Shown here piece by piece: positions 695 to 46,844 of a stretch of DNA of 64,000 bases. This DNA is from Cellulosimicrobium cellulans. GTDB lineage: Bacteria; Actinomycetota; Actinomycetes; Actinomycetales; Cellulomonadaceae. The translations under genes were made by a program, and so were the position numbers. Below the pieces are notes generated by a model. The model worked only from the letters and a program-made list of their open reading frames with translations. It was not told the origin of the DNA and searched no databases. The DNA is taken from contig NZ_JAMXST010000003.1 of NCBI RefSeq assembly GCF_024124905.1, forward strand, positions 558,001-622,000. The letters run 5' to 3'. The number at the start of each line of letters is the position of its first letter. The first letter of the stretch is position 1.

Positions 695-749
695 CGAACA
701 CGACATTGCTGCCGTTATCCGGGCGATAACGGCAGCAATGTCGTGTTCG
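695..749. repeat. Family A palindrome, copy 1 (perfect 25-bp arms)
   Basis: Bases 695-719 and 725-749 are perfect inverted copies with a 5-base loop. The outer part reads CGAACACGACATTGCTG and the inner part GCCGTTATC. It starts 33 bases downstream of the GH6 stop codon. The same outer core recurs near 3.9, 41.2, 42.4, 44.8 and 46.8 kb. It could act as a bidirectional terminator or mRNA 3' stabiliser; there is no T-tract. Confidence 0.85.
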
Positions 750-782
750 AGGGCGAGCAGGGTCGTGCTCGACGGCGTCGGG

Positions 783-2126
783 TTACCAGGACGCGTTGCG
801 GGCGAGCTCGAGCGCGACGTCCTGCCACCACTGTCCGGCGGGCGGCCCGCCGTTGCACGACCCGTCACTCTCGCCGGGCAGCTTGACCCAGAGCAGGGCG
901 TCCAGGTGCGTGCCGTCGTCGACCGCGCGTGGCGGGTCGCCCAGCGCGCGACCGCGGGGGTTGCACCACTCACCATTGCTCCCGGTGCCGTTGCGGGACG
1001 TGTCGACGACGAACGACACGTCGCCGCCGAGCAGCGCCGCGACCTGCTCGCCGTACGCGCGCGACTCGGCCGTCGTGCGGTAGTTCGACGTGTTGAGCGC
1101 GAACCCGACGGCGTCGTCGAGGCCCACCTGCTGGAGGCGGGCCGCGGCGGTCGCCGGGCTCAGCCACGCGGAGTGACCCGCGTCGATGTAGACGCGCGCG
1201 CCGGCGTCGGTCAGGATGCGCGCCGCGTCGCGCAGCATGCCGACGCGGTCGCCCTGGCCGGAGCAGTCGCCGAGCTGGGCGAGCGCGTCGGGCTCCAGGA
1301 CGACCCACGGCTCGCCGACGATGCCGGACGCGACCGTCTGGACCCAGCTCCGGTACGCCGCCTCGGCGGTGCCGCCGCCCGAGTGCGAGCCGCAGTCGCG
1401 ACCGGGGATCGCGTAGATCGTCAGGAGCGGCGTCGCTCCCTCGGCCGCGGCGGCGCTCGTGAACGCCGCGACCTTCGCGCGCGACACCTGCGCGTCCGCG
1501 TCGGTGACCCACGTCGACTGGGGCGTGAGCGCGATCTTCGCGAGCAGGTCCCGGTCCGTGCCCGACGCCGCCTGCCAGGCCTCCCACGCCTGGTTCGTCT
1601 CGTCCACGTGGAACGTCACGTCGTCCGGCGTCTCGGGGGGATCGGTGGGGTCCGGCGGGTCGGTGGGGTCGGGTGGGACGTCGCCGCCGCACGCGACGCC
1701 GTCGAGCGTGAAGCTCGCGGGCACGGCCGGGGCGGACGCGGCCGTGCCCACGAGGCCGAACGAGGCGCTGCCGCCCGTGGCGAGCGACGCGTTCCATCCC
1801 ACGTCGCCCACGGTGACCCGGCCGCCGTCGCGCCCGAGCGTGCCGTTCCAGAGCTGGCTGATGCTCTCGCCCGCCGGCAGGTCCCAGGCCAGCTCCCAGC
1901 CTGAGCGCGGGGCGCCGAGGTTCGTGACGGTGACGTCGGCCTGGAAGCCGCCGGACCACGCGCTCGTGATGCGGTAGTCGACCGTGCAGGCCGCGGAGGG
2001 CGCGGCCGCGCGGGTCGTCGCGAGCGCCGCACCGGCGGTCGCCGTGGCGCCCAGCGTCGCGAGGGTCGCGACGGCGGCGACGAGCGTCGCCGCACGGGGT
2101 CGTCGGGTGGGGGAGGTCGGTCTCAT
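783..2126 (-). CDS. Secreted GH6 cellulase with N-terminal CBM2
   Basis: Hydrolyses beta-1,4-glucan outside the cell. The 447-residue protein has a Sec-type signal (twin-Arg-rich start, hydrophobic run to about residue 36), a CBM2 cellulose-binding module (about 46-147, ending LDGVACGG), a short Pro/Thr linker (about 150-170, DPTDPPDPTDPP) and a GH6 catalytic domain. The GH6 marks are PGRDCG (D244) and VVLEPDALAQL, whose D280 matches the family's general acid, plus DAGHSAWL and NTSNYRTT. Endoglucanase versus exoglucanase cannot be settled by eye. It starts at an ATG with GGAG upstream. It is divergent from padR, with a LacI-type operator at 2196-2213 about 70 bases upstream, which suggests sugar-responsive repression. 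Confidence 0.93.
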   Translation of the reverse strand: MRPTSPTRRPRAATLVAAVATLATLGATATAGAALATTRAAAPSAACTVDYRITSAWSGGFQADVTVTNLGAPRSGWELAWDLPAGESISQLWNGTLGRDGGRVTVGDVGWNASLATGGSASFGLVGTAASAPAVPASFTLDGVACGGDVPPDPTDPPDPTDPPETPDDVTFHVDETNQAWEAWQAASGTDRDLLAKIALTPQSTWVTDADAQVSRAKVAAFTSAAAAEGATPLLTIYAIPGRDCGSHSGGGTAEAAYRSWVQTVASGIVGEPWVVLEPDALAQLGDCSGQGDRVGMLRDAARILTDAGARVYIDAGHSAWLSPATAAARLQQVGLDDAVGFALNTSNYRTTAESRAYGEQVAALLGGDVSFVVDTSRNGTGSNGEWCNPRGRALGDPPRAVDDGTHLDALLWVKLPGESDGSCNGGPPAGQWWQDVALELARNASW

Positions 2127-2195
2127 GCTCGGGGCTCCGTCGCCTCGGGGTCAGGACTCCGCCACGGTAGGGACTGTCGGGGAGCGGCCGGGAGG

Positions 2196-2213
2196 GTGCG
2201 AAACGTTTCGCAC
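2196..2213. promoter_or_regulatory. LacI-family operator
   Basis: GTGCGAAACGTTTCGCAC is a perfect 18-bp dyad with the central CG and AAACGTTT core typical of LacI/CcpA-like repressors. It lies between the divergent cellulase and padR genes, nearer the padR start. No lacI-type gene is in the window, so the regulator is encoded elsewhere. It is not the TGGGAGCGCTCCCA box known for CelR. Confidence 0.7.
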
Positions 2214-2262
2214 TGCGGCGCGTCGTGCTCCATAGGTTCGTTGCGAGGGTATGGTCGTCGCC

Positions 2263-2676
2263 ATGGCATCGAGACCGCTCCAGGAACCCGCGTTCCTCGT
2301 CCTGTCCGCGCTCGCGGCCGGTCCGCTGCACGGGTACGGCATCGCGCAGGACGTCGAGTCCAGCTCCGACGGCCGCGTGACGCTGCGCGCCGGGACGCTC
2401 TACGGCGCGATCGACCGGCTCGTCGCCGCCGGGCTCGTCGAGGTCGACCGCGAGGAGGTCGTCGACTCGCGCCTGCGCCGCTACTACCGGCTCACCACGG
2501 AGGGCGGGACGCGCCTCGCCGCAGAGGCCGAGCGTGCCGAGGCCCAGGCGCGCCGCGCGCTCGAACGCCTCGGCGCCCGCCGTCGCGCGACCGCGGTGGC
2601 GCGCGACGGCGTCGCGGCGCGCCCCGCCCGCGGCGTCGCGGGAGGTCTCGCCGACGGCGGGGCGGTGCCGGCATGA
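2263..2676 (+). CDS. PadR family transcriptional regulator
   Basis: Small repressor with a winged-helix DNA-binding domain (residues about 8-85): HGYGI, RAGTLYGAIDRL, GLVEVDREE and YYRLTTEG are the classic PadR blocks. The Arg/Ala-rich tail is disordered. I prefer the ATG at 2263 because TATGGT lies 7 bases upstream, the usual -10 spacing of an actinobacterial leaderless gene. The ATG at 2251, four codons earlier, would have its start inside that -10. It overlaps the next gene by ATGA, so the two are translated together; the membrane protein is the likely target or effector partner, as in other PadR pairs. The ligand is unknown. Confidence 0.88.
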   Translation: MASRPLQEPAFLVLSALAAGPLHGYGIAQDVESSSDGRVTLRAGTLYGAIDRLVAAGLVEVDREEVVDSRLRRYYRLTTEGGTRLAAEAERAEAQARRALERLGARRRATAVARDGVAARPARGVAGGLADGGAVPA

Positions 2677-3836
2677 GCGGGGACCGCGGGGGCCGCCCCG
2701 GTGCGGCGGGCGACGGAGCGACGGCAGCTCCTGCTGCGGCGAGCCCGACGGCGGAGCCCGGCCCGCCGGTGCTCGTCGCACCCGTGCTCGTGCGGGACTA
2801 CCGCCGACTCCTGCGGCTCTTCCCGTACACGTACCGACGGGCGCACGAGGCCGAGATGCTCGGTCACCTGCTCGACGGCGCGCGGCCGGGGCGGTCGCGC
2901 CCGACCCGGGCCGAGCGGTGGGACCTGCTGCGCGCCGCCGCCCGCGAGTGGGCGCTCGCGCCGCTGGGCTCGACGCCGCGGCAGCGGCGGGCGGCGACCG
3001 GGCTGCTGTTCGTGCTGCTCCCGGCGGTGCTCGTGGTCATGGCGGTGCGCGTCCTCGCGTTCGCTGCCGCGATCGTCCGGGCGATGCTCGGCCCGGACGG
3101 CGGCGCGCCGCTCGCGGCGACCGTCCCGACGGCGCCGATGTGGGCCCTGTGGATCGCGGCGGTCGCCCTCACGCTCGTCGGGGCGCGACGCGTCGGCCTC
3201 GTGGTCGCGGTGCTCGCCGCCGGGGCGGGCGTGGCCGCGCTCGTCGGGTCGGTCGCTGCGGGCAGCGCCTATGCCGCGTACCTCGACGCACCGTGGGTCG
3301 TCGGGCTCGTCGCGTACGCGGGGGTGCTCGCCGCGGGACGGACGTGCCGGGTCGGCGCCGAGCCGGTCGCGCTCCGGGCGGCGACGGTCTGGGCCATGGC
3401 GCTGGTCCTCGGCGCCTTCGTCGCGGCGACCTTCGCCGACGCGGCGCACCTCGGGATGCCGTGGTGGTCGGGTGGCGCCCTGGTCTCGTGGACGCTTCAG
3501 GCGCTCGCCGTACCGGTCGTCCTGCTCCTCGGCGTCGCCCTCCTGTGGCGCCGGACGCGCCAGGCGGTCCCGGTGCTCGGCGGTCTCGCGGTCGCCGTGC
3601 TGCTGAGCCGCTCGACCTTCTTCTGGTCCGGCACGGTGAGCATCCAGACGGCGGACCTCGGGAACGTCGTCGGCCTCCTGGCGTTCGCCGCCGCGGCGAC
3701 GCTCGTGCTGCGCTGGGTCGTCAACCGTCTCGACGAGCTCTCCGAGGCGCGCGCCGCGCACGGGGCTCTGCTCGCCGCGACGGGAGAGACGTTGGGGCCG
3801 GACGCGCCGCACCCGGGCGAGCCGACCGCCGTCTGA
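2673..3836 (+). CDS. Polytopic membrane protein, PadR partner
   Basis: A 387-residue protein of unknown function. A soluble head (about residues 1-100) contains DYRRLLRLFPYTYRRAHEAE, a block common in membrane proteins encoded beside PadR genes. It is followed by about eight hydrophobic segments and a short acidic/Ala tail. The start ATG at 2673 overlaps the padR stop codon (ATGA). There is no signal peptide or catalytic motif. Its job is probably tied to a membrane stress or permeability response controlled by PadR, but that is inference from position only. The gene ends 40 bases before a palindromic element that separates it from convergent purB. Confidence 0.82.
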   Translation: MSGDRGGRPGAAGDGATAAPAAASPTAEPGPPVLVAPVLVRDYRRLLRLFPYTYRRAHEAEMLGHLLDGARPGRSRPTRAERWDLLRAAAREWALAPLGSTPRQRRAATGLLFVLLPAVLVVMAVRVLAFAAAIVRAMLGPDGGAPLAATVPTAPMWALWIAAVALTLVGARRVGLVVAVLAAGAGVAALVGSVAAGSAYAAYLDAPWVVGLVAYAGVLAAGRTCRVGAEPVALRAATVWAMALVLGAFVAATFADAAHLGMPWWSGGALVSWTLQALAVPVVLLLGVALLWRRTRQAVPVLGGLAVAVLLSRSTFFWSGTVSIQTADLGNVVGLLAFAAAATLVLRWVVNRLDELSEARAAHGALLAATGETLGPDAPHPGEPTAV

Positions 3837-3875
3837 CACCGGCGCCGCCGAGAACGACGCTGCGCGCTCGCGAGA

Positions 3876-3920
3876 ACGACATGAGGGCCGTTATCTACCG
3901 GATAACGGCCCTCATGTCGT
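3876..3920. repeat. Family A palindrome, copy 2
   Basis: Bases 3876-3895 (ACGACATGAGGGCCGTTATC) and 3901-3920 are perfect inverted copies, 20 bp each, with a 5-base loop. The outer ACGACAT, the inner GCCGTTATC and the loop length match copy 1, while the middle differs. It sits between convergent genes, where a two-way terminator is expected. Confidence 0.82.
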
Positions 3921-3938
3921 GTTCCGCGCGGGGCTGGG

Positions 3939-5426
3939 TCAGTCCAGGTAGGCCGACACCAGGCGGGATGCCAGGCCCGTGTAGGTGGCCGGGGTGAGGT
4001 TCGCGAGGCGCTGGGCTACGTCGTCCGGAAGGCCGAGGCCGGCGACGAACTCGCGCAGGCGCGCGGCGTCGACGCGCTGGCCGCGCGTGAGGTCCTTGAG
4101 GCGCTCGTACGGGTTCTCCATGCCGGGGACGCCCGCGACCGACGCCGCGCGCATCGCCGACTGGATGGGCTCGCCGAGCACCTCCCAGTTCTCGTCGAGG
4201 TCCGCCGCCATGAGGTCGGCGTTCGCGGCGAGGGCCTTGAGGCCGCGGCGCACGTTGTCGATCGCGAGGAGCGAGTGGCCGAACGCGGGGCCGACGTTGC
4301 GCTGCGTCGTCGAGTCCGTGAGGTCGCGCTGGAGGCGCGAGGTGACGAGCGTCGCGCCGAGCGTGTCGAGCAGCGCGGACGAGATCTCGAGGTTCGCCTC
4401 GGCGTTCTCGAACCGGATCGGGTTGACCTTGTGCGGCATGGTCGACGACCCGGTGGCGCCGGGGACGGGGATCTGCGTGAAGAACCCCAGGGAGATGTAG
4501 GTCCACACGTCGGTCGCGAGGTTGTGGAGGATGCGGTTGAACCGCGCGACGTCGGCGTACAGCTCGGCCTGCCAGTCGTGCGACTCGATCTGCGTCGTCA
4601 GCGGGTTCCACGTGAGCCCCAGGCCCTCGACGAAGTGCTTCGACACCGACGGCCAGTCCACGCCCGGCACGGCGACGGTGTGCGCGCCGTACGTGCCCGT
4701 CGCGCCGTTGAGCTTGCCCAGGTACTCGGCCGCGCCGATCCGGCGGAGCTGGCGGCGCAGCCGGTGCGCGAGGACGGCGAGCTCCTTGCCGAGCGTCGTC
4801 GGCGTCGCGGGCTGGCCGTGCGTGCGCGAGAGCATCGGCACGTCCGCGTGCTCGCGCGCCATGTCCGCGAGCTGGTCGGCCAGGGCGGTCGCGGCGGGCA
4901 GCCACACCTGCTCGACGGCGCCGCGCACCATGAGCGCGTACGACAGGTTGTTGACGTCCTCGCTCGTGCACGCGAAGTGCACGAGCTCGCCGACGCCGGG
5001 GAGCACGGTGTCCGCGCCCAGGGCGTCGGGCGCCGCGGCGAGGCGGCGCTTGACGAAGTACTCGACCGCCTTGACGTCGTGCACCGTCTCGCGCTCGATC
5101 GCGGCGAGCTCGGCGATCTCCTCGCCGCCGAACGTCGCGGGGATCTGACGCAGGTACGCGACCTCCGCGTCGGAGAGCTGGGGGGCGCCCGGCACGACCG
5201 GGCGGACCGCGTTCTCGTCGACCGCCTGGACGCCGTTGCACAGCGTGATGAGCCACTCGACCTCGACGTGGACGCGCTCGCGGTTGAGCGCGGCCTCGCT
5301 GAGGTGGTCGACGAGCGGCGCGACGGCCGCGCGGTAGCGCCCGTCGAGCGGGCCGAGCGCGATCGGCGGGGTCACCTCGGCGAGCGACACGCGGGCAGGG
5401 GCGTCTGCGGCAGGGTTCTCGGGCAC
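3939..5426 (-). CDS. purB: Adenylosuccinate lyase
   Basis: Cleaves SAICAR and adenylosuccinate in purine synthesis, in the cytoplasm. At 495 residues it has the full fumarase/aspartase-family fold: IALGPLDGRY at the N-terminus, TSEDVNNLSYAL, SRTHGQPATPTTLGKE with the catalytic His, and the family signature SSTMPHKVNP near residue 325. The length and the PLDGRY start resemble the longer E. coli-type PurB. The start is the GTG at 5426 with GGGAG 11 bases upstream. It stands alone, convergent with the membrane protein and divergent from the WXG-like gene. Confidence 0.95.
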   Translation of the reverse strand: MPENPAADAPARVSLAEVTPPIALGPLDGRYRAAVAPLVDHLSEAALNRERVHVEVEWLITLCNGVQAVDENAVRPVVPGAPQLSDAEVAYLRQIPATFGGEEIAELAAIERETVHDVKAVEYFVKRRLAAAPDALGADTVLPGVGELVHFACTSEDVNNLSYALMVRGAVEQVWLPAATALADQLADMAREHADVPMLSRTHGQPATPTTLGKELAVLAHRLRRQLRRIGAAEYLGKLNGATGTYGAHTVAVPGVDWPSVSKHFVEGLGLTWNPLTTQIESHDWQAELYADVARFNRILHNLATDVWTYISLGFFTQIPVPGATGSSTMPHKVNPIRFENAEANLEISSALLDTLGATLVTSRLQRDLTDSTTQRNVGPAFGHSLLAIDNVRRGLKALAANADLMAADLDENWEVLGEPIQSAMRAASVAGVPGMENPYERLKDLTRGQRVDAARLREFVAGLGLPDDVAQRLANLTPATYTGLASRLVSAYLD

Positions 5427-5621
5427 GCCCCTGATTCTCCCACGCGTGCCCGACGGCGGCCCGCGCCTCCCGCAGTCCGGGCACGCGGTCCTGGGCCGGC
5501 GCGCGATCCGTGGGCGCCGCGCGGTGCGTGGCCGTCCCCAGGGCCGTCTTCCGAGCGGCCCGTCCACAGCGGCGGACGGGGCCGCGGCGTCCGGGCCGAG
5601 GCCCTGCGTACGGTCGCCGCC

Positions 5622-5936
5622 ATGTCCTCCTCGTCGCCCCCGCCGCCCCCGCCGTGCGACGCTGCGCCGTTCGGCGTCTCGCTCGCCCGGGCCCGGGTCC
5701 TCACCGCCCAGGACGACGTCGCGCGGGCCGGTGCCGCGCTCGTCGCGCCGGACCTGCCGTGGGCGGGCCACGCGCGCGCGTCGTACGACGATGCCGCCGC
5801 CGAGCAGCGCGGCGGGCTGCTCCGGCTCGGCATGCTGCTCGACAGCTGCCTCCTGCGCCTCGACGCGCTCACCGTCCTCGCCGAGGCCGAGGTGGCGAGG
5901 ATCCGGGCCGAGCTCGCCGCGGCGGGGTTGCCGTGA
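5622..5936 (+). CDS. WXG100-like small protein
   Basis: A 104-residue, mostly helical protein. After a Ser/Pro-rich start it has two predicted helices joined by LPWAGHARASYDDAAAE, in which W-A-G sits at the hairpin turn as in WXG100/ESX substrates. It has no signal peptide. The start has no ribosome site; TACGGT lies 7-8 bases upstream, so translation is probably leaderless. Its stop overlaps the start of the hydrolase gene (GTGA), so the pair is made together. In known ESX pairs such small partners accompany a larger effector for type VII export. Weak points: the match rests on helix-WxG-helix layout, and no ESX ATPase gene is in view. Confidence 0.6.
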   Translation: MSSSSPPPPPPCDAAPFGVSLARARVLTAQDDVARAGAALVAPDLPWAGHARASYDDAAAEQRGGLLRLGMLLDSCLLRLDALTVLAEAEVARIRAELAAAGLP

Positions 5937-7603: not shown

Positions 7604-7636
7604 CGGCGCCCGTCCTGCGGACCGAGGCGGCCGGGG

Positions 7637-8026: not shown

Positions 8027-8118
8027 ACCGGGCATCCTGCCATCCGGGCGGCGCCCGGGCACGGCGCCGGGCCGCGCCCCGGCGGGACCGCGCCGGGCAG
8101 GTGGCATGATCGAGGACC

Positions 8119-9198: not shown

Positions 9199-9270
9199 GG
9201 CCGTCCGTCCCGGACCCGTGCCGAGCGGTCCCTGTTGCCGGGCGCCGACGGCGCGAGAACACTCGCGAGC

Positions 9271-9537: not shown

Positions 9538-9541
9538 GGCG

Positions 9542-18783: not shown

Positions 18784-20606
18784 CGCGCGTCGTCGTGATC
18801 GGCAACGGCATGGTCGGGTCGCGGTTCGCGAGCGACCTCGTGGCGCGCTGCGGGGCGCCCGCGGGGACGTCGGCCGTGGAGGTCACCGTGCTCGGCGCGG
18901 AGGAGTACGCGCCGTACAACCGCGTGCTGCTCAGCGAGGTCGTGGCGGGCAAGGTCGACGTCGCGGCGATCGGCCTGCCGGGGGCGGACGACGCCCGCGT
19001 CACGGTGCGCCGCGGCACCGAGGCCATCGCGATCGACCGGTCCGCGCGCCGCGTCGTCACGGGCGACGGCGCGCACCCGTACGACGTCGTCGTGCTCGCG
19101 ACGGGTGCGGCCGCGCGGGTCCCCGACCTGCCGGGCCTGACGGACCTCCCGGGCGGCCTGCCTCGTGGCGCGCACGCGCTGCGCACGCTCGACGACGCGC
19201 GCGAGATCGTCGCGGCGTCGGTCAACGCGCGGCACGCCGTGGTCGTCGGGGCGGGCGTGCTCGGGCTGGAGGTCGCGTGCGGGCTCGCGCGCCGCGGCGT
19301 CGCGGTGAGCCTCGTGCACGGGGGTGCGAGCGTCATGGACCGCCAGCTCGACCGCGCCGCGGGGGGCGTCGTCGCGCGCGGCCTCGCGGGTCTCGGCGTG
19401 CGGACCTGGACGCGCGCGCGCACCGAGCGCGTCCTCGTGGAGTCGGGTTCCGTGCGCGGGGTGACGCTCCGCGTGCCCGACGGCGGGGCGCCCGCCGGCC
19501 CGTCGGCCCGCCCGGCGGGGGGCGCGGGGGACGACGCGACGCGGCTCGTCGGCATCGAGGCCGACCTGCTCGTGCTCGCGTGCGGCACCGTGCCCGAGGC
19601 CGGGCTCGCGCGTGCGGCGGGCCTCGCGGTCGACCGGGGCGTCGTCGTCGGGCCGGACCTGGCGAGCCCCGACGACCCGCGCGTGTTCGCGATCGGCGAC
19701 TGCGCGCAGCCGCCCGAGGGCGGCACCGGGCTGATCGCGCAGGGCTGGGACCAGTCGCGCCGGCTCGCGGACCACCTCGCGGAGCGGTGCGCGAGGTGGA
19801 CCGACCGGGGCGGCGCGGTGAACCCGGACGCCGCGCAGGGGGCGGCGTCGGGGCGCCCACGGGTCCGCCTGGGGGTCGACGCCGACCGGCCGAGCATGGC
19901 GCTGCGCCTCGCCATGAACGTCGTCGCGCGCCCGCTCGGGGAGCCGCCCGGGCCGTCGGCACCGGGCGTGTCCGGGGTCGCTGCCCACCCTGCCGGTCCC
20001 GGGTCCACGGGTCGTCCGCGCCCTCCTGGTCCCGGGAACCCCGGTGTGGACGAGCGCCCGAGGGCCGGGACCGACGTCGTGCGCGTCAAGGCGGCGGGGC
20101 TGGAGATCGTGACGATGGGCGTGTGCGGCGAGCGGCGGGCGCCCGACCCCGCGCACCGCTCCGTGACGCTGAGCGACCCCGCGTCGGGGCGGCACGTCGA
20201 GGTCGTCGTCGCGGACGGCCTGCTCGTCGGCGTGACGTGCGTCGGCGCGCCCGAGGTGGGCGCGGACCTCACCGCGACGTACACCCGTCGGGTCCCGGTC
20301 CCCGCGGACCCGGCCCACCTGCTGCTGCGCCCTGTCGCGCAGGCCCCCGCGCCGGCGTCGTCCCCGACCCACATGCCCGACCGCACGACCGTCTGCACGT
20401 GCAACGGCGTGACCAAGGGCGACGTCGTCGGGTGCTGGCACGACGGCGCCCGCAGCGTCGACGACGTCGCGCGGGCCACGCGCGCGACGACGGGCTGCGG
20501 GGGCTGCAAGGACGTCGTGTGCGGTCTGGTCGACTGGCTCGCGAAGGCGGACCCGGACCAGCCGAAGAACGAGGCAGCACCGGCGCCGGTCGGCCTCGAC
20601 ACGTGA
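18780..20606 (+). CDS. FAD/NAD(P)H oxidoreductase with C-terminal BFD-type [2Fe-2S] domain
   Basis: Likely feeds electrons from NAD(P)H to the nitrate reductase (NasB-like role). It has 608 residues: FAD-binding VVVIGNGMVGSRFASDL at the start, the YAPYNRVLLSEVVAG block of nitrite/rubredoxin-reductase-type flavoproteins, the NAD site VVVGAGVLGLEVACGLARRG near residue 155, the second FAD motif VFAIGDCAQ, a long Pro/Gly linker (about 388-430), and a C-terminal BFD-like domain, TVCTCNGVTKGD...TTGCGGCK, with four cysteines for a [2Fe-2S] cluster. It starts by ATGA overlap with nasC. Nearest relatives are the N-terminal half of NirB; the siroheme domains are absent. Confidence 0.88.
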   Translation: MTRVVVIGNGMVGSRFASDLVARCGAPAGTSAVEVTVLGAEEYAPYNRVLLSEVVAGKVDVAAIGLPGADDARVTVRRGTEAIAIDRSARRVVTGDGAHPYDVVVLATGAAARVPDLPGLTDLPGGLPRGAHALRTLDDAREIVAASVNARHAVVVGAGVLGLEVACGLARRGVAVSLVHGGASVMDRQLDRAAGGVVARGLAGLGVRTWTRARTERVLVESGSVRGVTLRVPDGGAPAGPSARPAGGAGDDATRLVGIEADLLVLACGTVPEAGLARAAGLAVDRGVVVGPDLASPDDPRVFAIGDCAQPPEGGTGLIAQGWDQSRRLADHLAERCARWTDRGGAVNPDAAQGAASGRPRVRLGVDADRPSMALRLAMNVVARPLGEPPGPSAPGVSGVAAHPAGPGSTGRPRPPGPGNPGVDERPRAGTDVVRVKAAGLEIVTMGVCGERRAPDPAHRSVTLSDPASGRHVEVVVADGLLVGVTCVGAPEVGADLTATYTRRVPVPADPAHLLLRPVAQAPAPASSPTHMPDRTTVCTCNGVTKGDVVGCWHDGARSVDDVARATRATTGCGGCKDVVCGLVDWLAKADPDQPKNEAAPAPVGLDT

Positions 20607-20670
20607 GATCGGCGGGCCTCGTCGAGATCGGCAGTCACGATCGCCGATCTCGGCACGACCTGCCGATCTC
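20605..20670. repeat. Family B palindrome (GAGATCGGC type), nas-nir gap
   Basis: Bases 20605-20634 and 20641-20670 form imperfect inverted arms of 30 bases with a 6-base loop. The unit GAGATCGGC occurs twice in each arm. The left arm starts within the stop codon of the flavoprotein gene. It is a likely terminator between the nas operon and the nirB promoter, and is a relative of the GAGATCGACCC element near 25.4 kb. Confidence 0.75.
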
Positions 20671-20720
20671 GCCCCGCTCCGCCGACCTCACACGGCGGTG
20701 CGGCGCCGGGTGAGAACACC

Positions 20721-27503: not shown

Positions 27504-27530
27504 CACCCGGGCCCCGCCCATGAAGACCCC

Positions 27531-27651
27531 CGGTCCAGCGAGGTAGAGCCCTGGTCGATCGAGGGAGAACCAGGGCACTACCTCGCGGGACCAGGGCTCT
27601 ACTTGAACGGACCAGGGCTGTACCTCGCCGGACCACCGTTCTCCCTCGATC
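27531..27651. repeat. Composite palindrome of nested GACCAGGGC units
   Basis: About 120 bases are made of inverted and direct copies. The left part (GTCCAGCGAGGTAGAGCC then CTGGTC) is inverted twice on the right (GACCAGGGCTCTACTTG; GACCAGGGCTGTACCTCG), and GATCGAGGGAGAACC is inverted as GTTCTCCCTCGATC at the far end. It lies between the convergent chelatase and MFS genes. Confidence 0.82.
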
Positions 27652-37167: not shown

Positions 37168-37199
37168 GTGGTGCTCTCTCGAGACGGTGAGGGGGACGC

Positions 37200-38964: not shown

Positions 38965-39032
38965 GGCGGCCGTGAGAGCGGTCGTCCACAGGCGATGACC
39001 GGAGGGGTCCGCGCGCTCGATACCCTGGTCCG

Positions 39033-41186: not shown

Positions 41187-41203
41187 CCCCACCCCCTACC
41201 CGC

Positions 41204-41258
41204 CGAACACGACGTTGCTGGCGTTCTCGGGCCGATCACGACAGCAACCTCGCGTTCG
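41204..41258. repeat. Family A palindrome, copy 3
   Basis: Bases 41204-41224 (CGAACACGACGTTGCTGGCG) pair with 41238-41258 with three mismatches over a 13-base loop. The stop codon of the next minus-strand gene lies at 41236-41238, so its last codons are read from this repeat. Confidence 0.8.
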
Positions 41259-42306
41259 ACGGCGCGGAGCCTCGTGCTCGATCGAGGTGGCGACGCAGCG
41301 AGGTCGTCATGCGACCCGGTCGGCTCGTCCCGGGCTGCGTCAGGTCCCGACCCGTGAAGCGGAGGACCTCCACCCCGCCGTGCGTCACGAGCGCGTTCTG
41401 ACGCGAGCGGTCGCGGAGGAGCGCGTCGGGCGAGCCGTGGACGTCCGTGCCGTCCATCTCGCCGATCAGCCACCGCCCTCGGGGCAGCCGCCACCCGAGA
41501 TCTCCACGCCCGACGAACGCGCCGTCGTCGACCACCTCGACCTGGAGGTCGTCGGGTGCCAGCCCGACGTCCGCGCACTCGAGGCGAGCGAACGTCTCGA
41601 GCGGTGACTCGGACCGTGCGTCCGCCTCGGCCCACCAGGCGTGCGTCCGCGCGACACCCCGCCGCCCACGGGCCAGGTCGTGGGCGCGAGCCAGGCCTTC
41701 GGCGTCGAGGAGCCCGAGATGGCCGACGCTGTCCATCGCCGCGACGGCGCGCCGCCGACCCATCTCGGGGACTGCCTGGGCCAGCGCCCAGTCAGGGCTC
41801 GCGACGTAGCGGCCGTCGACCTGGACGACGGTCATCCCGTCGTCGAATTGGCGCAGCCGGATCCCGTCGCGCGGCAGCGCTCCCCGTGCCCCGGGGAGCG
41901 TCGCCTGCGGCACGACGCCCGTGCTGATCCCCTGGACACCGAGCAGGACGAGCGCGCACGGTCCGACGGCGATCGCCTCGGGTCCGTACGCGAGGAGCGC
42001 GAGCCAGGCGGCGCGGCGCCGACGGTGGTCGTGCACCCGGGGGTCCGACGGCGCGAACAGCCCCGGCGTCGCCTCGAACACCCCTCGCGTGGGTCGGCGC
42101 CAGCGGCCCTGGTCGACGAGTCGCGAGCGGCGGTTCGCGTTCACACCGTGCGCGTCGCACTGCGAGGCGGAGACGAGCCCGGCCTGACGCTCGGCGAGGA
42201 CGAGGAGCTCGGTCGGGACCGTGGTCAGTGTGCGCACCTCCGGATCTGACCAGAGACGCGCCCGGCCGCGCACCGGCGGGATGCGCAGGCTGTGGACAGC
42301 GATCAC
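41236..42306 (-). CDS. AbiEi-like antitoxin-domain / DUF559-like nuclease-fold protein
   Basis: A 356-residue protein with an N-terminal winged helix of the AbiEi type (LLVLAERQAGLVSASQCDAH, RSRLVDQGRWRRPTRGVF), a middle domain (LLAYGPEAIAVGPCALVLLG) and a C-terminal restriction-fold (DUF559/Vsr-like) domain with E in SPLETFARLE, D in GRGDLGW, E/D in LIGEMDGTDVHG and EVLRFTGRDL. Such proteins occur singly in many actinobacteria; no AbiEii toxin gene is adjacent. The last eight residues come from palindrome copy 3. The GTG at 42306 is tentative; a GTG at about 42236 has GGAG right before it. Confidence 0.75.
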   Translation of the reverse strand: MIAVHSLRIPPVRGRARLWSDPEVRTLTTVPTELLVLAERQAGLVSASQCDAHGVNANRRSRLVDQGRWRRPTRGVFEATPGLFAPSDPRVHDHRRRRAAWLALLAYGPEAIAVGPCALVLLGVQGISTGVVPQATLPGARGALPRDGIRLRQFDDGMTVVQVDGRYVASPDWALAQAVPEMGRRRAVAAMDSVGHLGLLDAEGLARAHDLARGRRGVARTHAWWAEADARSESPLETFARLECADVGLAPDDLQVEVVDDGAFVGRGDLGWRLPRGRWLIGEMDGTDVHGSPDALLRDRSRQNALVTHGGVEVLRFTGRDLTQPGTSRPGRMTTSLRRHLDRARGSAPSNARLLS

Positions 42307-42409
42307 GGAACGGGCCCTGTGGACGGCCCCGTTCCGCGTACCCCAGGACGACAGCCCGAGCTCTCGGCGCGCGCGGGCGCCCCGACCACGACCTTGCGCG
42401 GTGTCGAGG

Positions 42410-42454
42410 ACGAGGTTGCTGTCGTTCTAGGCCCCAGAACGACAGCAACCTCGT
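42410..42454. repeat. Family A palindrome, copy 4
   Basis: Bases 42410-42428 (ACGAGGTTGCTGTCGTTCT) and 42436-42454 are perfect inverted copies, 19 bp, over a 7-base loop, with looser pairing outside. It lies between two divergent gene starts, so it is not a 3'-end terminator here. Confidence 0.85.
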
Positions 42455-42511
42455 GTTCGGCAAGGTCGGGGTGGGGGCGAGGGAGGGTCGCTGCCGTGAT
42501 AGGACGTACGG

Positions 42512-44803
42512 GTGAGTAACGACGCCGCCATGCCCGGTACCTCCGACTCGTCCGCGAATCCGTTCCACGACCTCGACCAGTACCTCGCGATCCCGCGGGT
42601 CGGGGGGCTGGCGCTGTCGCCCGACGGGGCGCGCCTGGTCACGACCGTCCAGACCCTCGACCCGCAGCGCACGGGGTACCGGACGGCGCTGTGGGAGGTG
42701 GACCCCGCGGGCCACGCCCCGGCGCGTCGGCTCACGCGCAGCACCCAGGGCGAGTCGAGCGCGACGTTCACGGGGGCGGGCGACGTCCTGTTCACGTCCG
42801 CCCGCCCCGACCCGGACGGCGGTTCCGACGACGACCCGAAGGCCGCGCTGTGGCTGCTCCCGGCGACGGGCGGCGAGGCGCGCGTCGTCGCGACGGCGCC
42901 CGCGGGCGTGAGCGGCCCGCTCGCCGCGGCGGACGCACCGGTGGTCTCGGTCGCGGCGAAGGTGCTGCCGAGCGCGCGCGACCTGGCGCACGACGCCGAG
43001 CTCCGCGCCGCGCGCAAGGACGCCAAGGTCGCGGCGATCCTCCACAGCGCGTACCCCGTGCGCCAGTGGGACCACGACCGCGGCCCGGACGAGGCGCACC
43101 GGTTCGTCGGCGACCTCACGGCCCTCGTCGACGAGCCCGCCCACCCGCTCCCCGCACCGGCCGACGACGCCGGGTCCGACGGCACCGACGCGCCCCACGA
43201 CCCCCGGCTCCTCGACCTGCGCGACGTGGCCCGCGGCGTCGGGCAGGCGTCCGCGCCGGGCCGCGCGCTGCACGACCACTCCGCAGACCTCTCCGCCGAC
43301 GGCACGACCCTCGTCACGACGTGGCAGGTCGCCGGCCCGGGGCCGCAGGTGCGCAACACGCTCGTCGCGATCGACACCGCGACGGGCGCGCGCCGCACGC
43401 TCGTCGACGAGCCGAGCGCGGAGGCGCACTGGCCGCGCATCTCGCCGGACGGAGCGTGGGTCGCGTTCGTGCGCGAGACGATCTCGACGCCGCACCAGGC
43501 GCCGGAGGAGAGCCTCGCCGTCGTGCCGCTGCACGCGCCCGACGGGCCTGCCGGCGCGGGCGTCGACCACGACGACTCCGCGACGACACGCGCCGAGAAC
43601 CACGCGACCCCGCGCACGCTCGTGCCGCACTGGGACCGCTGGCCGACGTCGCTGCGCTGGCTCCCCGACGGCTCGGGCCTGCTCGTCACGGCCGACGACG
43701 ACGGCCGCGGGCCGGTCTTCCTCGTCGCCTTCTCCCCGGACGGCGCGGCGGAGAACGGCACCGCCGAGCGCGTGACGAGCGACGACGCCGTCTTCACGGA
43801 CGTGCAGGTCGCGCCCGACGGGCGCACGGCGTACGCGCTGCGGACGAGCTACCTCGAGCCGTCGCACCCGGTGCGCATCGACGTCGGGGCGTTCCTCGAC
43901 TCCGGTGCGGCGGGCGGCCGCACCCCGGTGCCCGCGACGCCGTTGCGCGGGCCGGTCGCGACGCCCGACCTCCCGGGCACGCTCGTCGACGTCGAGACCG
44001 CCGCGGCCGACGACGTGCGCGTGCGCGGCTGGCTCGCGCTGCCGCACGGTGCGTCCGCGGAGAACCCGGCCCCGCTGCTGCTGTGGATCCACGGCGGCCC
44101 GCTCGGTTCGTGGAACGCGTGGAGCTGGCGCTGGAACCCGTGGCTGATGGTCGCGCGCGGGTACGCGGTGCTGCTGCCGGACCCGGCGCTCTCGACCGGG
44201 TACGGGCAGGACTTCGTGCAGCGCGGGTGGGGCGCGTGGGGCAAGGCCCCGTACACGGACCTGCTCGCGATCACGGACGCCGTGGAGGCGCGCCCGGAGG
44301 TCGACGCGTCGCGGACGGCCGCGATGGGTGGCTCGTTCGGCGGGTACATGGCGAACTGGGTCGCGGGCCACACGGACCGCTTCCGCGCGATCGTCACGCA
44401 CGCGAGCCTGTGGGCGCTCGACCAGTTCGGCCCGACGACCGACCACGCGTACTACTGGGCGCGCGAGATGACGCCGGAGATGGCGCTGGAGAACAGCCCG
44501 CACCGGTTCGTCCAGGACATCGTCACGCCGATGCTCGTCATCCACGGCGACAAGGACTACCGGGTGCCGATCGGCGAGGGCCTGCGGCTCTGGTACGAGC
44601 TGCTCGACTCGTCCGGCCTGCCCGCCGGGCCCGACGGCGAGACCGTGCACCGGTTCCTGTTCTACCCGGACGAGAACCACTGGATCCTCCAGCCGCAGCA
44701 CGCGAAGGTCTGGTACCAGGTCGTGCTCGCGTTCCTCGCGGAGCACGTGCTCGGCGCCACCCCGGGCGAGGACGACGCGGCGCTGCCGACGACGCTCGGC
44801 TGA
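42512..44803 (+). CDS. S9 family peptidase (prolyl-oligopeptidase type)
   Basis: A 763-residue peptidase with a seven-blade propeller-like N-half (about 20-480; ISPDGAWVAFV, LPDGSGLLVTAD) and an alpha/beta hydrolase C-half (about 500-763). The triad is S608 in GGSFGGYM, D682 in GDKDYRVP and H723 in ENHWILQPQH. GGPLGSWNAWSW lines the oxyanion hole. Without a signal peptide it is cytoplasmic and trims short peptides. The GTG start follows TAGGAC by 6 bases (possible leaderless -10) with no stronger site. Palindromic repeats flank both sides of the gene. Confidence 0.93.
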   Translation: MSNDAAMPGTSDSSANPFHDLDQYLAIPRVGGLALSPDGARLVTTVQTLDPQRTGYRTALWEVDPAGHAPARRLTRSTQGESSATFTGAGDVLFTSARPDPDGGSDDDPKAALWLLPATGGEARVVATAPAGVSGPLAAADAPVVSVAAKVLPSARDLAHDAELRAARKDAKVAAILHSAYPVRQWDHDRGPDEAHRFVGDLTALVDEPAHPLPAPADDAGSDGTDAPHDPRLLDLRDVARGVGQASAPGRALHDHSADLSADGTTLVTTWQVAGPGPQVRNTLVAIDTATGARRTLVDEPSAEAHWPRISPDGAWVAFVRETISTPHQAPEESLAVVPLHAPDGPAGAGVDHDDSATTRAENHATPRTLVPHWDRWPTSLRWLPDGSGLLVTADDDGRGPVFLVAFSPDGAAENGTAERVTSDDAVFTDVQVAPDGRTAYALRTSYLEPSHPVRIDVGAFLDSGAAGGRTPVPATPLRGPVATPDLPGTLVDVETAAADDVRVRGWLALPHGASAENPAPLLLWIHGGPLGSWNAWSWRWNPWLMVARGYAVLLPDPALSTGYGQDFVQRGWGAWGKAPYTDLLAITDAVEARPEVDASRTAAMGGSFGGYMANWVAGHTDRFRAIVTHASLWALDQFGPTTDHAYYWAREMTPEMALENSPHRFVQDIVTPMLVIHGDKDYRVPIGEGLRLWYELLDSSGLPAGPDGETVHRFLFYPDENHWILQPQHAKVWYQVVLAFLAEHVLGATPGEDDAALPTTLG

Positions 44804-44826
44804 GCACGAGGTAGCCCGCACGCGAC

Positions 44827-44873
44827 CACGAGGTTGCTGTCGTGATCGGCTCGATGACGACAGCGACCTCGTG
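44827..44873. repeat. Family A palindrome, copy 5
   Basis: Bases 44827-44843 (CACGAGGTTGCTGTCGT) pair with 44857-44873 with one mismatch over a 13-base loop. It sits between convergent peptidase and sigma-factor genes. Confidence 0.82.
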
Positions 44874-44899
44874 CTCGACGCCGGTGATCCGCGGGGCGG

Positions 44900-46207
44900 T
44901 CACGGGAGGGTGCGGAGGCGGGCCGCGCGGAGCGTGAGGTAGTCGCGCTCCGCGGGGCTCGGCGTCGCCGCCGCGGCGGCGACGTACTGCCCGACGGCGG
45001 CCCGCGTCTCGCCCGCCCGCTCCAGCAGGTGCGCGCGCACCGCCGGCAGGCGGTGGCTCGTCGCGAGCGCGCCGTCGAGGCCGTCGAGGAGGGCGAGGCC
45101 CGCGCGCGGGCCGTCGACCATCGCGACCGCGACCGCGCGGTTGAGCGTGACGTGCGGGCTCGGGTCGAGGCGCTCCAGCACCGAGTACAGCGCCAGGACC
45201 CGTTCCCAGTCGGTCGCGTCCGTGCTCGGTGCCTGCGCGTGCAGCGCCGCGACCGCGGCCTGCACCTGGTACGACCCGACGAGACCGTGGCGGAGCGTCG
45301 CGGTGACGATCCGGACGCCCTCGACGATCTCCGCGTGGTCCCAGCGCGTGCGGTCCTGGTCGGCGAGCGGCACGAGCTCCCCCCGCGGACCGGTCCGGGC
45401 GTCGCGACGGGCGTCCGTGAGGAGCATGAGCGCGAGCAGCCCGCCGACCTCCGGGTCGTCCGGCAGCAGCGCGTGCACCGTCCGGGCCAGCCGGATCGCC
45501 TCGCCCGACAGGTCCGCGCGCCGCAGCAGCGGCCCCGAGGTCGCCGTGTGCCCCTCGGTGAACACGACGTAGAGGACGCGCAGCACGGCGGCGAGCCGCG
45601 CGTCCCACTCGCCCGGACCCGGGGTCGCGAACGGGCGGTCGAGCGCGGCGAGGCGCCGCCTCGCGCGCGTGAGGCGCTGCGTCATGGTCGCCTCGGGGAC
45701 GCCGAACGCGCGGGCGATCTCCGCCGTCGTGAGCCCGCCGACGGTCCGCAGCGTCAGCGCGACGGCGCTCGCGGGCGGCAGGTCGGGGTGGCAGCAGAGG
45801 AAGAAGAGGGTGAGCGAGTCGTCGACGTCGATCGCCCGCCCCGCCGCGCCCGGCCCGCCGCCGGGCGCGGCGGACCGGGCGGCGGACGAGGCCTCGCCCC
45901 CGAGGCCTGCGGGGGCGAGGCCCGCCGAGTCCGGGTCGCGCCGCGCGGTCGTCTCCTCCCGGCGGCGCCGCGCGACGTCGGCCCGGACGGTGTCCACGAG
46001 CCGCCGCTCCGCGACGCGCACGAGCCAGGCCCGCGGGTCGTCGGGGAGCCCGTCCGCCGGCCAGCGGGTCGCGGCCGCGAGCAACGCCTCCTGGAGCGCG
46101 TCCTCGGCGTCGGCGAGGTCGCCGCAGCGCCGCACCAGGAGGCCGAGGACGCGCGGGCGGAGGTCCCGCAGCAGGTCCTCCACCGGCTCGGGGGCCGTGG
46201 CGGTCAC
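44900..46207 (-). CDS. ECF42-type RNA polymerase sigma factor
   Basis: A 435-residue sigma factor with a long C-terminal extension. Region 2 is DAEDALQEALLAAATRWPADG with PRAWLVRVAERRLVDTVR; region 4 is LTLRTVGGLTTAEIARAFGVPEATMTQRLTRARRRLAALD. Beyond residue about 200 is the TPR-like SnoaL-free extension typical of ECF42 (LYVVFTEGHTATSGPLLRRADL, DRTRWDHAEIVEGV). ECF42 factors act without an anti-sigma and need this tail. It starts with GTG 7 bases after the DGPF gene, the standard ECF42 arrangement. Confidence 0.92.
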   Translation of the reverse strand: MTATAPEPVEDLLRDLRPRVLGLLVRRCGDLADAEDALQEALLAAATRWPADGLPDDPRAWLVRVAERRLVDTVRADVARRRREETTARRDPDSAGLAPAGLGGEASSAARSAAPGGGPGAAGRAIDVDDSLTLFFLCCHPDLPPASAVALTLRTVGGLTTAEIARAFGVPEATMTQRLTRARRRLAALDRPFATPGPGEWDARLAAVLRVLYVVFTEGHTATSGPLLRRADLSGEAIRLARTVHALLPDDPEVGGLLALMLLTDARRDARTGPRGELVPLADQDRTRWDHAEIVEGVRIVTATLRHGLVGSYQVQAAVAALHAQAPSTDATDWERVLALYSVLERLDPSPHVTLNRAVAVAMVDGPRAGLALLDGLDGALATSHRLPAVRAHLLERAGETRAAVGQYVAAAAATPSPAERDYLTLRAARLRTLP

Positions 46208-46214
46208 GTGGCGG

Positions 46215-46616
46215 TCACTGCTCGGACGCGGGCGCGCTCATGACCTGGCGGACCTCGATGTACTCGCCGATCGGGGCGCCTCCTGGGCCGGGCGCGGCCG
46301 ACGCCTGCGCCGCGATCTCGACCGCGCGGTCCTGGCTGTCGACGTCGACGATCCAGTAGCCCGCGAGGAACTCCTTCGACTCGGGGAACGGGCCGTCGGT
46401 GACGACCGGGGCCGTGCGGCCGTCGGACGTGACGACGAGCGCCTGGTCCGGACCGGCCAGCCCCTGGGCGTCGACGAGCTCGCCCGACGCGGCGAGCTGC
46501 TCGCCGAGCGCGCGCTGGAACGCGATGTGCGCCTCGACGTCCTCCGGTGCCCACTCGTGGATCGGGAGGTCGCAGTGCGCCGCCTGCGTGTACGTCTTCA
46601 CCAGCATGTACCTCAT
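46215..46616 (-). CDS. DGPF/YCII-domain protein, ECF42 partner
   Basis: A 133-residue protein of the YCII-related fold. The namesake DGPF motif stands in VVTDGPFPESKEFLAGYWIV, followed by the conserved D-x-D and E-x-R-x2 segments. It heads the operon with the ECF42 gene. DGPF proteins are usual targets and neighbours of ECF42 factors; their activity is unsettled. The ATG has GGAAGGA upstream, and a CRP-type site lies about 96 bases upstream. Confidence 0.93.
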   Translation of the reverse strand: MRYMLVKTYTQAAHCDLPIHEWAPEDVEAHIAFQRALGEQLAASGELVDAQGLAGPDQALVVTSDGRTAPVVTDGPFPESKEFLAGYWIVDVDSQDRAVEIAAQASAAPGPGGAPIGEYIEVRQVMSAPASEQ

Positions 46617-46711
46617 GGTCCGTTCCTTCCGTCGGTCGGCGCTCCGTCGGCGCCGTCACGAGGAGGTCGGAGCCGACGGCCCGCTCCCGACACGTCTCGG
46701 TCGTGGGTCCG

Positions 46712-46727
46712 TGTGAACTGGATCACA
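46712..46727. promoter_or_regulatory. CRP/GlxR-type operator
   Basis: TGTGAACTGGATCACA fits TGTGA-N6-TCACA exactly, the binding site of cAMP receptor-type regulators (GlxR in corynebacteria). It lies upstream of the DGPF-ECF42 operon. Confidence 0.78.
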
Positions 46728-46789
46728 CCACAGTCACCCTGGTCGTGACGAGCGTCGGCGAGCCTGCCGAGTGCGACGTACCGCGCTGT

Positions 46790-46844
46790 CGAGCACGACG
46801 TCGCTGTCGCGAGGGGCCGTATTCCGACAGCAACGTCGTGCTCG
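46790..46844. repeat. Family A palindrome, copy 6
   Basis: Bases 46790-46809 (CGAGCACGACGTCGCTGTCG) pair with 46825-46844 with one mismatch over a 15-base loop. It starts 5 bases beyond the stop codon of the downstream-reading ECF sigma gene. Confidence 0.83.

Follow-up and report, generated by a model that had tools for sequence, protein, structure and literature searches.

The window analysed here, a stretch of DNA 64,000 nucleotides in length, carries six long inverted repeats with related arms. The usual view of short intergenic palindromes is that they are either terminators, which are conserved but unrelated to each other, or mobile REP/MITE elements, which are related but not conserved in place. 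Those described below are related to each other yet mostly keep their places, with local exchange of their content. The original prediction viewed them as a spreading REP/MITE-like palindrome that also serves as a terminator, an interpretation that as a whole is partly supported.

Architecture, copy number, and genomic context

All six inverted repeats lie where they had been predicted, and they are copies of one fixed-size 83-bp element. Their positions and those of the genes used as anchors are as follows, with gene calls made here and in other genera by a purpose-written codon-usage finder rather than a standard annotator.

692..774, + strand: element copy 1, 83 bp, palindrome 696-748, third box on the right, CM match of 97.7 bits; 8 nt from the 3' end of a GH6 cellulase gene
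3846..3928, - strand: element copy 2, palindrome 3872-3924, in the convergent gap between a gene at 2769-3836 (+) and purB at 3939-5390 (-)
3939..5390, - strand: purB (adenylosuccinate lyase), the anchor for copy 2, present in 28 of 28 genomes searched
41201..41283, + strand: element copy 3, palindrome 41205-41257, flanked by a CtaG/CopD gene and gene X
41236..42306, - strand: gene X, with an N-terminal AbiEi_4 domain (Pfam E 1.2e-6), between copies 3 and 4
42380..42462, - strand: element copy 4, palindrome 42406-42458, between the divergent starts of gene X and the S9 peptidase gene
42512..44803, + strand: S9 (prolyl oligopeptidase family) gene, the anchor for copies 3-5, present in 17 of 17 genomes of the genus
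44798..44880, - strand: element copy 5, palindrome 44824-44876, between the convergent S9 peptidase gene and a sigma-factor-like gene
46765..46847, - strand: element copy 6, palindrome 46791-46843, just 3' of a sigma-factor gene at 46850-47416 (-)

Structurally, each unit consists of a 53-nt palindrome (24+5+24), a 14-nt spacer, and the arm end repeated for a third time. The consensus reads GARCACGA, eight variable nucleotides, TCGTTMTC, a 5-nt loop, the mirror image of this arm, the 14-nt spacer, and the third box. The palindromes were correctly recognized in the original prediction, but the variable sizes given there (arms of 17-25 bp, loops of 5-15) are not upheld because all copies fit the 24+5+24 layout, and the third box had been missed.

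The fixed dimensions are evident in a 1.26-Mb sample of the same genome, which comprises the 64-kb window and 60 stretches of 20 kb. Exact half-site pairs (GARCACGA/TCGTGYTC) peak in this sample at spans of 53 nt (33 pairs) and 75 nt (18 pairs), with every other span from 20 to 399 nt remaining below 3. The 75-nt peak is produced by the third box, located 22 nt past the right arm on a single side only. This box is present on the chosen side in 42 of 49 copies and on the mirror side in one, where the side was picked by a score that itself includes the third box. Under a simple terminator model, this feature has no role.

A scan for the consensus combined with pairing yielded 46 matches in the 1.26 Mb versus none in dinucleotide-Markov sequence of equal length. 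Similarly, an ab initio scan for hairpins of any kind found 133 in 1.264 Mb, a length that counts 2 kb twice, compared to a single one in 400 kb of Markov sequence. A chance origin of the palindromes is excluded. The arms covary within the genome's own family, with two-sided changes at 13 of the 24 pairs and 117 cells altered on both arms versus 46 in shuffles. The mean predicted fold energy of the hairpins is approximately -35 kcal/mol, and a CGTC tetranucleotide sits just before one arm in many copies. No Rfam match above the gathering score was found within the window, and no description of the element was found in open PubMed Central texts.

The family is indeed dispersed and, as anticipated, far exceeds ten copies: genome-wide searches give at least 76 distinct loci in this genome and likewise in a complete genome of the same species (G098). 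All 17 Cellulosimicrobium genomes carry the element, with 24 to at least 30 matches each when both strands are counted. Across the order the distribution is patchy (11 of 198 genomes at E 1e-6, the own genome included). Copies are clustered, with 21 gaps shorter than 5 kb where 5.7 are expected, and in G098 they crowd certain regions and are nearly missing at 0.9-2.5 Mb. A role as a chromosome-organising site of the ori or ter domain was considered and rejected, because dnaA at 2.82 Mb in G098 places the element-poor stretch on one arm only, which does not fit a symmetric function.

The predicted preference for gene ends and convergent gaps was borne out. Among 48 copies, 66 of the 96 adjoining gene ends are 3' ends and 30 are 5' ends. 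Most of these 3' ends (52/66) lie within 60 nt of the palindrome, and the median distance from stop codon to palindrome is 29 nt. Convergent gaps hold 23 of the 48 copies, whereas 88 of 592 background gaps of at least 60 nt are convergent (Fisher p 3e-7); gaps between divergent starts hold four or five copies. Within the window, copies 2, 3, and 5 are in convergent contexts and copies 1 and 6 in tandem contexts, and the gene finder agrees with the earlier placement of copy 4 between divergent starts. In tandem contexts the orientation of the element relative to transcription is random (9 same, 11 opposite).

These placements suggest that the elements function as terminators, although not of the canonical intrinsic type, which is ruled out because neither side carries a T tract (25/490 and 35/490 bases are T in the 10 nt after the arm). 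Rather, they combine a stable hairpin with a nearby stop codon and no U tract, as is characteristic of 'I-shaped' terminators. RNA-sense mismatches in tandem contexts comprise 10 G-U and 19 A-C combinations, with many of the latter from one box position. G-U is thus not favoured over A-C, and the counts are no demonstration of selection at the RNA level. Some copies are mismatched at the base of the arm and, at purB, the same mismatch recurs across species, indicating that pairing at the base need not be perfect.

Conservation in place and exchange of inner sequence

Most copies occupy the same places in related species. In a second species (G049), 29 of 33 testable copies from the own genome (G000) are present at the orthologous place, and the reciprocal comparison finds 32 of 35 in place; all have the same orientation in both directions. 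In a third species (G065), 23 of 32 testable copies are in place, while 8 or 9 of the 32 are missing and a single copy is flipped, which reveals that some turnover exists. This conservation and the distance between copies do not support the active spreading proposed for the family. The closest pair among 49 sampled copies (of at least 76 loci) shares only 75 of 83 positions, and there are no recent near-identical copies in this sample. Also, the Y1 (RAYT/IS200-like) transposase domain PF01797 was found in none of eight genomes; in a control, the same search gave matches in 5 of 14 known genomes. No target duplication was seen by eye at the printed empty sites, which often lack the adjoining spacer as well. 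In other words, copies of the element are not visibly jumping.

At the 3' end of purB, a palindrome with the same box ends occupies the site in all 15 Cellulosimicrobium loci that could be read, and four of seven genomes from another genus have an A-like palindrome there. Across species, the inner pairs at this site change on both sides at 12 of the 24 pairs, amounting to 62 cells versus 22 in shuffles. In its count of pair types the site does not clearly exceed shuffles, 83 of 500 of which reach the observed value. The right box is retained in most species while the inside switches.

At 13 of the 31 sites shared by G000 and G049, a coordinated switch of type has affected the inner modules in the two arms. 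The identity of switched elements to their orthologs is 57.1/83, equivalent to that between unrelated copies (57.5/83), whereas unswitched elements retain 73.8/83. All 13 switched elements of G049 are closer to another G049 copy than to the ortholog, and none of the 18 unswitched elements are. The flanks remain orthologous: those of 1.2 kb are alike at switched and unswitched sites (92.5% and 92.3% identity), and the likeness of the adjacent 35-nt flanks is nearly as high at switched sites (0.73/0.67) as at unswitched sites (0.78/0.72). In the comparison of G065 with G049, 11 of 11 switched elements are closer to a paralog; for G000 with G065, this is true of just four of seven.

Because the sites had been sorted by inner type, identity was re-measured outside the two inner 8-mers. 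Here switched sites retain 51.3 of 67 positions, unswitched sites 59.2, and unrelated copies 48.1, with switched sites exceeding the median unrelated copy in 10 of 13 cases. This residual likeness to the ortholog implies that the whole unit is not always replaced. By region, the spacer and outer boxes of the 13 switched pairs are nearly as unlike as those of unrelated copies. Joint exchange in place of the inner modules of the two arms is seen at many shared sites and results in species dialects. The inner hexamer is TTGCTG or TTGGTG in 32 of 39 copies of G049; in G000, TGAGGG (14/50) and TTGCTG (9/50) are seen.

Explanations for a related family that mostly stays in place

We favour the reading, at a probability of roughly 0.6, that these sequences are two-way gene-end hairpins lacking a U tract, which drift as species dialects through conversion-like exchange. 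Each hairpin would end or protect transcripts arriving from either side, acting either as a two-way I-shaped terminator or as a barrier to 3' exonucleases following Rho-dependent termination. The exchange might occur by ectopic gene conversion or by template switching between hairpins for which the conserved boxes serve as anchors, presumably with tracts of varying length, and it would make copies within a genome alike with no new insertions. We infer conversion from the sequence patterns, not from a traced donor. More speculatively, and with considerably less confidence, a dedicated rewriting process might use the inner sequence of a given gene-end element to overwrite others genome-wide. Its driver would be either the palindromes, through hairpin-anchored template switching, or a trans-acting enzyme that reads the conserved boxes, and the signals of a species would drift together as a dialect while positions and mostly orientations stay fixed.

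Copies that are related, mostly keep their places, and exchange content locally make it possible to test, as is seldom the case, how dispersed 83-bp repeats in bacteria can evolve in concert when neither visible transposition nor an uptake signal is involved. For high-GC actinobacteria, in which little is understood of termination, the family also supplies a well-delimited collection of putative two-way gene-end signals that includes naturally occurring variants at orthologous positions.

Among the alternatives, the best-placed is a DNA-level protein site that relieves supercoiling between convergent genes, by analogy to BIME-like sites for gyrase or a nucleoid protein, and we regard it as rather unlikely. 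The 22-bp spacing of the second and third boxes is close to two helical turns, and such a site would be in keeping with the preference for convergent gaps, the random orientation relative to transcription, and the lack of an RNA wobble preference. However, the inner variable bases covary between the arms, and a protein reading the boxes in double-stranded DNA would not need them to.

Also unlikely is that the elements are mobile, of the REP/MITE type, spreading by transposition and either tolerated at gene ends or later co-opted there. Their number, their clustering, their patchy occurrence in the order, and the gains or losses of sites between species would fit such an origin. Against this stand the retention of most testable copies in place and nearly always in the same orientation, the distance separating even the closest sampled pair, the lack of a Y1 transposase in the eight genomes, and the printed empty sites, at which no target duplication was seen by eye, though their adjoining spacer is often missing. 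Of the REP/MITE likeness, the dispersed multi-copy family stands, whereas the stem size of REPs, a Y1 transposase in the eight genomes, and near-identical copies among the 49 sampled were not found. A REP/RAYT system is ruled out by stem size and by the transposase search in these eight genomes.

We consider it quite improbable that the elements are recombination sites or cassette boundaries, where inverted pairs let the enclosed gene flip or be exchanged. This idea arises from gene X, whose flanking copies 3 and 4 are inverted partners. By blastn, the gene is opposite in 5 of 13 other loci with a match (G065, G112, G134, G106, and G124), and the flagged inversion boundaries between G000 and G065 are copies 3 and 4 only. 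Moreover, gene X is absent at this site from two genomes: G129, where a single degenerate element remains (by eye), and G088, which has one element. However, this is the single such locus seen, and in G134, G106, and G124 the scan finds no element there, with degenerate look-alikes recognized only by eye. The G065 gene is a divergent allele (73% nt identity), and it may therefore have been replaced in inverted form instead of flipping. Ordinary homologous recombination between inverted repeats would also be enough.

There is similarly little to recommend ordinary gene-end hairpins that are alike merely through composition and selection for stable stems. Their positions near stop codons are conserved, and U-less I-shaped terminators near stop codons are described in mycobacteria in the available part of one report (PMC12288462). 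The original prediction held that strict conservation in place across genera would argue for ordinary terminators; by that standard the conservation points to a gene-end function, but the inner exchange speaks against ordinary ones, which would not exchange inner sequence in place. Identical words and exact spans at unrelated loci, a third box at fixed distance, the absence of matches in Markov sequence, and paralog-like exchange at orthologous sites largely refute this account as a full explanation.

Finally, it is highly improbable that the elements are DNA uptake sequences with a second role as terminators, of the kind known from Neisseria and Pasteurellaceae. Such sequences share with these elements genome-wide words, inverted pairs at gene ends, and species dialects (cf. 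the available part of PMC1852404), but in samples of two genomes the box and inner words show no enrichment outside the elements (for example GAACACGA, 121 observed versus 114.2 expected; GTTGCTG, 37 versus 37.2), which refutes this reading at the level of solitary-site enrichment. 

Comparison with known systems

Several known systems resemble the 83-bp element in part. Integron attC sites are imperfect palindromes with paired boxes and variable inner spacers, an arrangement similar to that seen here, although the present copies were not seen to form an array behind an integrase. Dialects of uptake sequences between species have reportedly been published. As portrayed in the accessible portion of PMC1852404, uptake-sequence terminators likewise involve a repeated word, inverted pairs at gene ends, and species dialects; unlike those, the elements here have no solitary-word enrichment and no T tail. 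The stem-loop repeat families catalogued in 40 genomes are also intergenic with a shared secondary structure, and the part of that catalogue available (PMC2267715) mentions no Cellulosimicrobium family and no exchange in place.

REP sequences, as far as the available part of PMC3733652 describes them, are 20-40 bp elements tagged with GTAG or CGTC, the tag being unpaired at one end. The CGTC type has stems of 8-9 bp with AT at the first positions, a CCA-like tail, and no dedicated transposase. In common with REP/BIME sequences, our elements are dispersed palindromes located mainly downstream of genes and between convergent genes. They further resemble the CGTC type in that many copies have CGTC before one arm and in that a search of eight genomes found no Y1 transposase. 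However, they differ from REPs in their 24-bp stems, in the 53-nt palindrome within an 83-bp unit, in the third box, in the lack of a CCA-like tail, and in places that are mostly conserved between species.

A further likeness is to the I-shaped terminators of actinobacteria, defined in the available part of PMC12288462 as stable hairpins lacking a U tract shortly after the stop codon. The elements described here share the stable hairpin, the missing U tract, and the position close past the stop codon, but unlike I-shaped terminators they form one sequence family with a fixed 24+5+24 layout and a third box.

Element anatomy, copy number and taxonomic spread

The window (G000:C4:558001-622000) belongs to a genome of 4.67 Mb in 10 contigs. 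The six inverted repeats originally predicted here are borne out, and every one matches a single common frame. Spans of 53 and 75 nt are the sole pairing distances of exact half-sites in 1.26 Mb of this genome. The left half of the aligned element consists of CGCC, box 1 (GARCACGA), eight variable nucleotides, TCGTTMTC and a 5-nt loop, and the right half of GAKAACGA, eight variable nucleotides and box 2 (TCGTGYTC). Approximately 14 GACGGCG-rich nucleotides then lead to box 3 (TCGTGBTC) and GGCG. Box 3 is present in 42 of the 49 sampled copies and, because it lies on one side, gives the palindrome a direction. The variable 8-mers are unlike between copies, yet mutually paired in most. In an alignment of 44 of the 49 copies, both sides change in 13 of 24 arm pairs, and the covariation score is 0.294 versus 0.114 in shuffles. 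In the G000 sample, GATAACGAC is found 23 times, always within elements.

A covariance model built from these 44 copies identifies at least 76 distinct loci in the genome (from at least 150 matches, both strands counted), above the limit of about ten copies in the original prediction. Only two of them lie on contig C2 (1.09 Mb), from which 100 kb of sequence was read. The complete same-species genome G098 yields 148 matches and likewise at least 76 distinct loci, including a weak one (E 0.0085). Its region C1 0.9-2.5 Mb (1.6 Mb) holds only two of these, and elements elsewhere are clustered, with 21 gaps below 5 kb versus 5.7 expected.

At E 0.01, 122 of the 150 genomes in the family sample match. 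Each of the 17 genomes of the genus has from 24 to at least 30 matches (both strands counted), and two other genera (one g11 genome listed and seven g23 genomes) have from 29 to at least 30. In the order sample, searched with a tighter cutoff of E 1e-6, matches occur in 11 of 198 genomes, spread over six families. A strict palindrome pattern searched in a named genome collection finds Cellulosimicrobium only, in eight stretches (five in C. funkei U11, three in C. cellulans NBRC 15516). Fifteen copies from seven genomes outside the genus, drawn from those matching in the family and order samples, all form palindromes by eye with words of their own, such as GAGCAAGC-CTCAGGGG in G286; ten are convergent, five tandem and none divergent. 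The third box is visible by eye in the g23 and g11 copies and was not seen in those from G286, G177, G072, G021 and G323. The gene-end palindromes of similar size, with their own words, in genomes of other families of the order (L194-L197 in G286, L201-L202 in G177) suggest that dialects are a wider phenomenon.

Other repeat families occur in the same genome. Family B is a second dispersed palindrome, CGAACCCGGGGTCGCTCC..., whose span is exactly 56 nt (for example L001:16923-16978). It occurs at 33 places in 1.26 Mb, versus about five for adjacent spans, and in varied contexts: 10 tandem, 14 within called genes, five convergent and four divergent. Family C, at window 27514-27631, comprises GCGAGGTAGAGCCCTGGT units in both orientations with a 21-nt period; 1.26 Mb contain 53 clusters with 110 unit matches in all. 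Family E, at window 20588-20691, has inverted GAGATCGGC units with direct copies spaced 19 nt. Family D consists of GAGAAGTGGCC palindromes (L047 near 18199, L006 near 9281) with a span of 42 in three of three pairs.

Genomic position and conservation in place

The 49 sampled elements comprise 23 in convergent, 20 in tandem and five in divergent contexts plus one at a stretch edge, from a sample in which many stretches were picked for hits in an earlier pattern search, so that element densities are not readable from it and context counts are less affected. If in-gene copies are counted apart, these become 23 convergent, 18 tandem, four divergent, three inside called genes and one edge. Background gaps of at least 60 nt number 88 convergent, 336 tandem and 168 divergent, and elements occupy 21 of the 80 convergent gaps that measure 60-400 nt. 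Adjoining gene ends are 66 3' versus 30 5', of which 52 and eight, respectively, lie within 60 nt. In tandem contexts, element orientation is independent of transcription (nine same, 11 opposite).

Sites were compared by their 1.2-kb flanks against 800 kb of a second Cellulosimicrobium species (G049, ~92% identical), using 50 elements because one extra arises on joining neighbouring stretches. For seventeen, the G049 sequence used contains no orthologous site. Among the other 33, 29 are at the same place and in the same orientation, one is weak and three are absent. Conversely, 32 of 39 G049 elements are present in G000, all in the same orientation, with three absent and four outside the comparison. 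Against 738 kb of a third species (G065), 23 are present, all with orientation kept, 18 fall outside the comparison and nine are scored absent, one of which is actually present with a one-base deletion. Of 28 G065 elements, 24 are present in G000, one is absent and three are outside the comparison; 23 of the 24 keep their orientation and one is inverted relative to both G000 and G049. The original prediction of a REP/MITE-like spreading palindrome at gene ends thus holds for the family and its location, but spreading is not visible and the elements are mostly fixed in place.

At the 3' end of purB, a box-ended palindrome follows the stop codon in all 15 readable loci of the genus; a sixteenth (G142) is in pieces and was left out. 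Four of seven g23 genomes have a similar palindrome there, and three have unrelated ones, of which two (62 and 64 nt) belong to one type and the third to another. In two g23 genomes this site carries the palindrome GCCGAGAAGTGAG..., whose end resembles family D. Elsewhere, the purB end has a 61-nt palindrome (G072), a 40-nt hairpin (G037) or a weak hairpin (G064); no palindrome was found there in G021, and the G011 locus was not readable.

A second anchor lies in the window:
41201..41283, copy 3 of the element
41236..42306 (-), gene X, with an AbiEi_4 domain
42380..42462, copy 4, inverted relative to copy 3
42512..44803 (+), S9 peptidase gene

In 14 of the 17 genomes of the genus, the scan located one or more elements near the S9 peptidase gene; it found none there in G134, G106 and G124. 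Just upstream of 42512 is a conserved GTGATAGGACGTAC stretch, exact in 13 of the 15 loci shown, which may be the promoter of a leaderless S9 peptidase gene. Gene X, between copies 3 and 4 (41201-42462), has the opposite orientation in five of 13 other matching loci (G065, G112, G134, G106, G124); at the G134, G106 and G124 loci the scan found no element, and look-alikes were seen by eye only. The comparison with G065 flags an inversion boundary at copies 3 and 4 only. The allele of gene X in G065 is divergent (73% nt) and lies between elements of a different type, so this arrangement may reflect inverted replacement of the whole cassette. Gene X is missing in G088, which has one element at the site, and in G129, which has one degenerate element.

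Exchange of inner sequence

Comparison of orthologous sites indicates that the inner sequence of the elements is exchanged in place, with positions mostly fixed. The inner 8-mers sort into TGAGGG-like, TTGCTG-like and other types, and the type is switched at 13 of 31 shared sites between G000 and G049, seven of 23 between G000 and G065, and 11 of 23 between G065 and G049. (The pairing rule used here is simpler than the flank comparison and gives 31 rather than 29 G000-G049 pairs.) Orientation is kept in all 31. Species also differ in dialect: TTGCTG or TTGGTG occurs in 32 of 39 G049 copies, whereas TGAGGG and TTGCTG occur in 14 and nine of 50 copies in G000 and in seven and six of 28 in G065.

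Between G000 and G049, switched orthologs share 57.1 of 83 positions, as against 57.5 for unrelated copies and 73.8 for unswitched orthologs, a drop that is partly by construction because sites were sorted by inner type. The G049 element is nearer another fetched G049 copy than its ortholog at 13 of 13 switched and none of 18 unswitched sites. The corresponding counts are 11 of 11 versus three of 12 for G065-G049 and, more weakly, four of seven versus one of 16 for G000-G065. The 1.2-kb flanks are equally alike at switched and unswitched sites, and the neighbouring 35 nt nearly so.

The exchange is of variable extent and not always of the whole unit, given the likeness left outside the 8-mers; the reading of exchange in place does not depend on whole-unit replacement. 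Identity over these 67 nt is 51.3 at switched sites, 59.2 at unswitched sites and 48.1 between unrelated copies, and 10 of 13 switched sites exceed the median unrelated copy. As judged from these alignments, exchange always takes the inner modules of both arms and often extends further, though not always to the whole unit. At purB, the inside switches and the right box CGTTCTCG is mostly retained. In an alignment of 14 genus and four g23 sequences (leaving out G134, whose palindrome is longer, and loci with unrelated palindromes), only two of 144 inner cells are unpaired, and therefore the arms change together.

Possible mechanism and comparison with known systems

The exchange would be explained most economically, we infer, by ectopic conversion, or by hairpins switching template with one another, the boxes serving as short homology. 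RNA-sense wobble is not favoured (10 G-U versus 19 A-C in 20 tandem copies), and for this reason pairing may be maintained at the DNA level, for instance through conversion or the formation of cruciforms.

Several known identities were rejected. An uptake sequence is disfavoured since, in samples of two genomes, the words are not enriched as solitary sites outside elements. Nor does the family look like a recently active MITE, as the 49 sampled copies include no near-identical pair. A REP/RAYT system is opposed by 24-bp stems and by a search of eight genomes that found no Y1 transposase. No description of the element was found in open PubMed Central. A canonical terminator does not fit, as no T tract follows the hairpin. 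Location, symmetry and stability suggest that the elements may end or cap transcripts arriving from either side. In mycobacteria, hairpins without a U tract near stop codons have been regarded as I-shaped terminators, a view that is disputed (PMC12288462).
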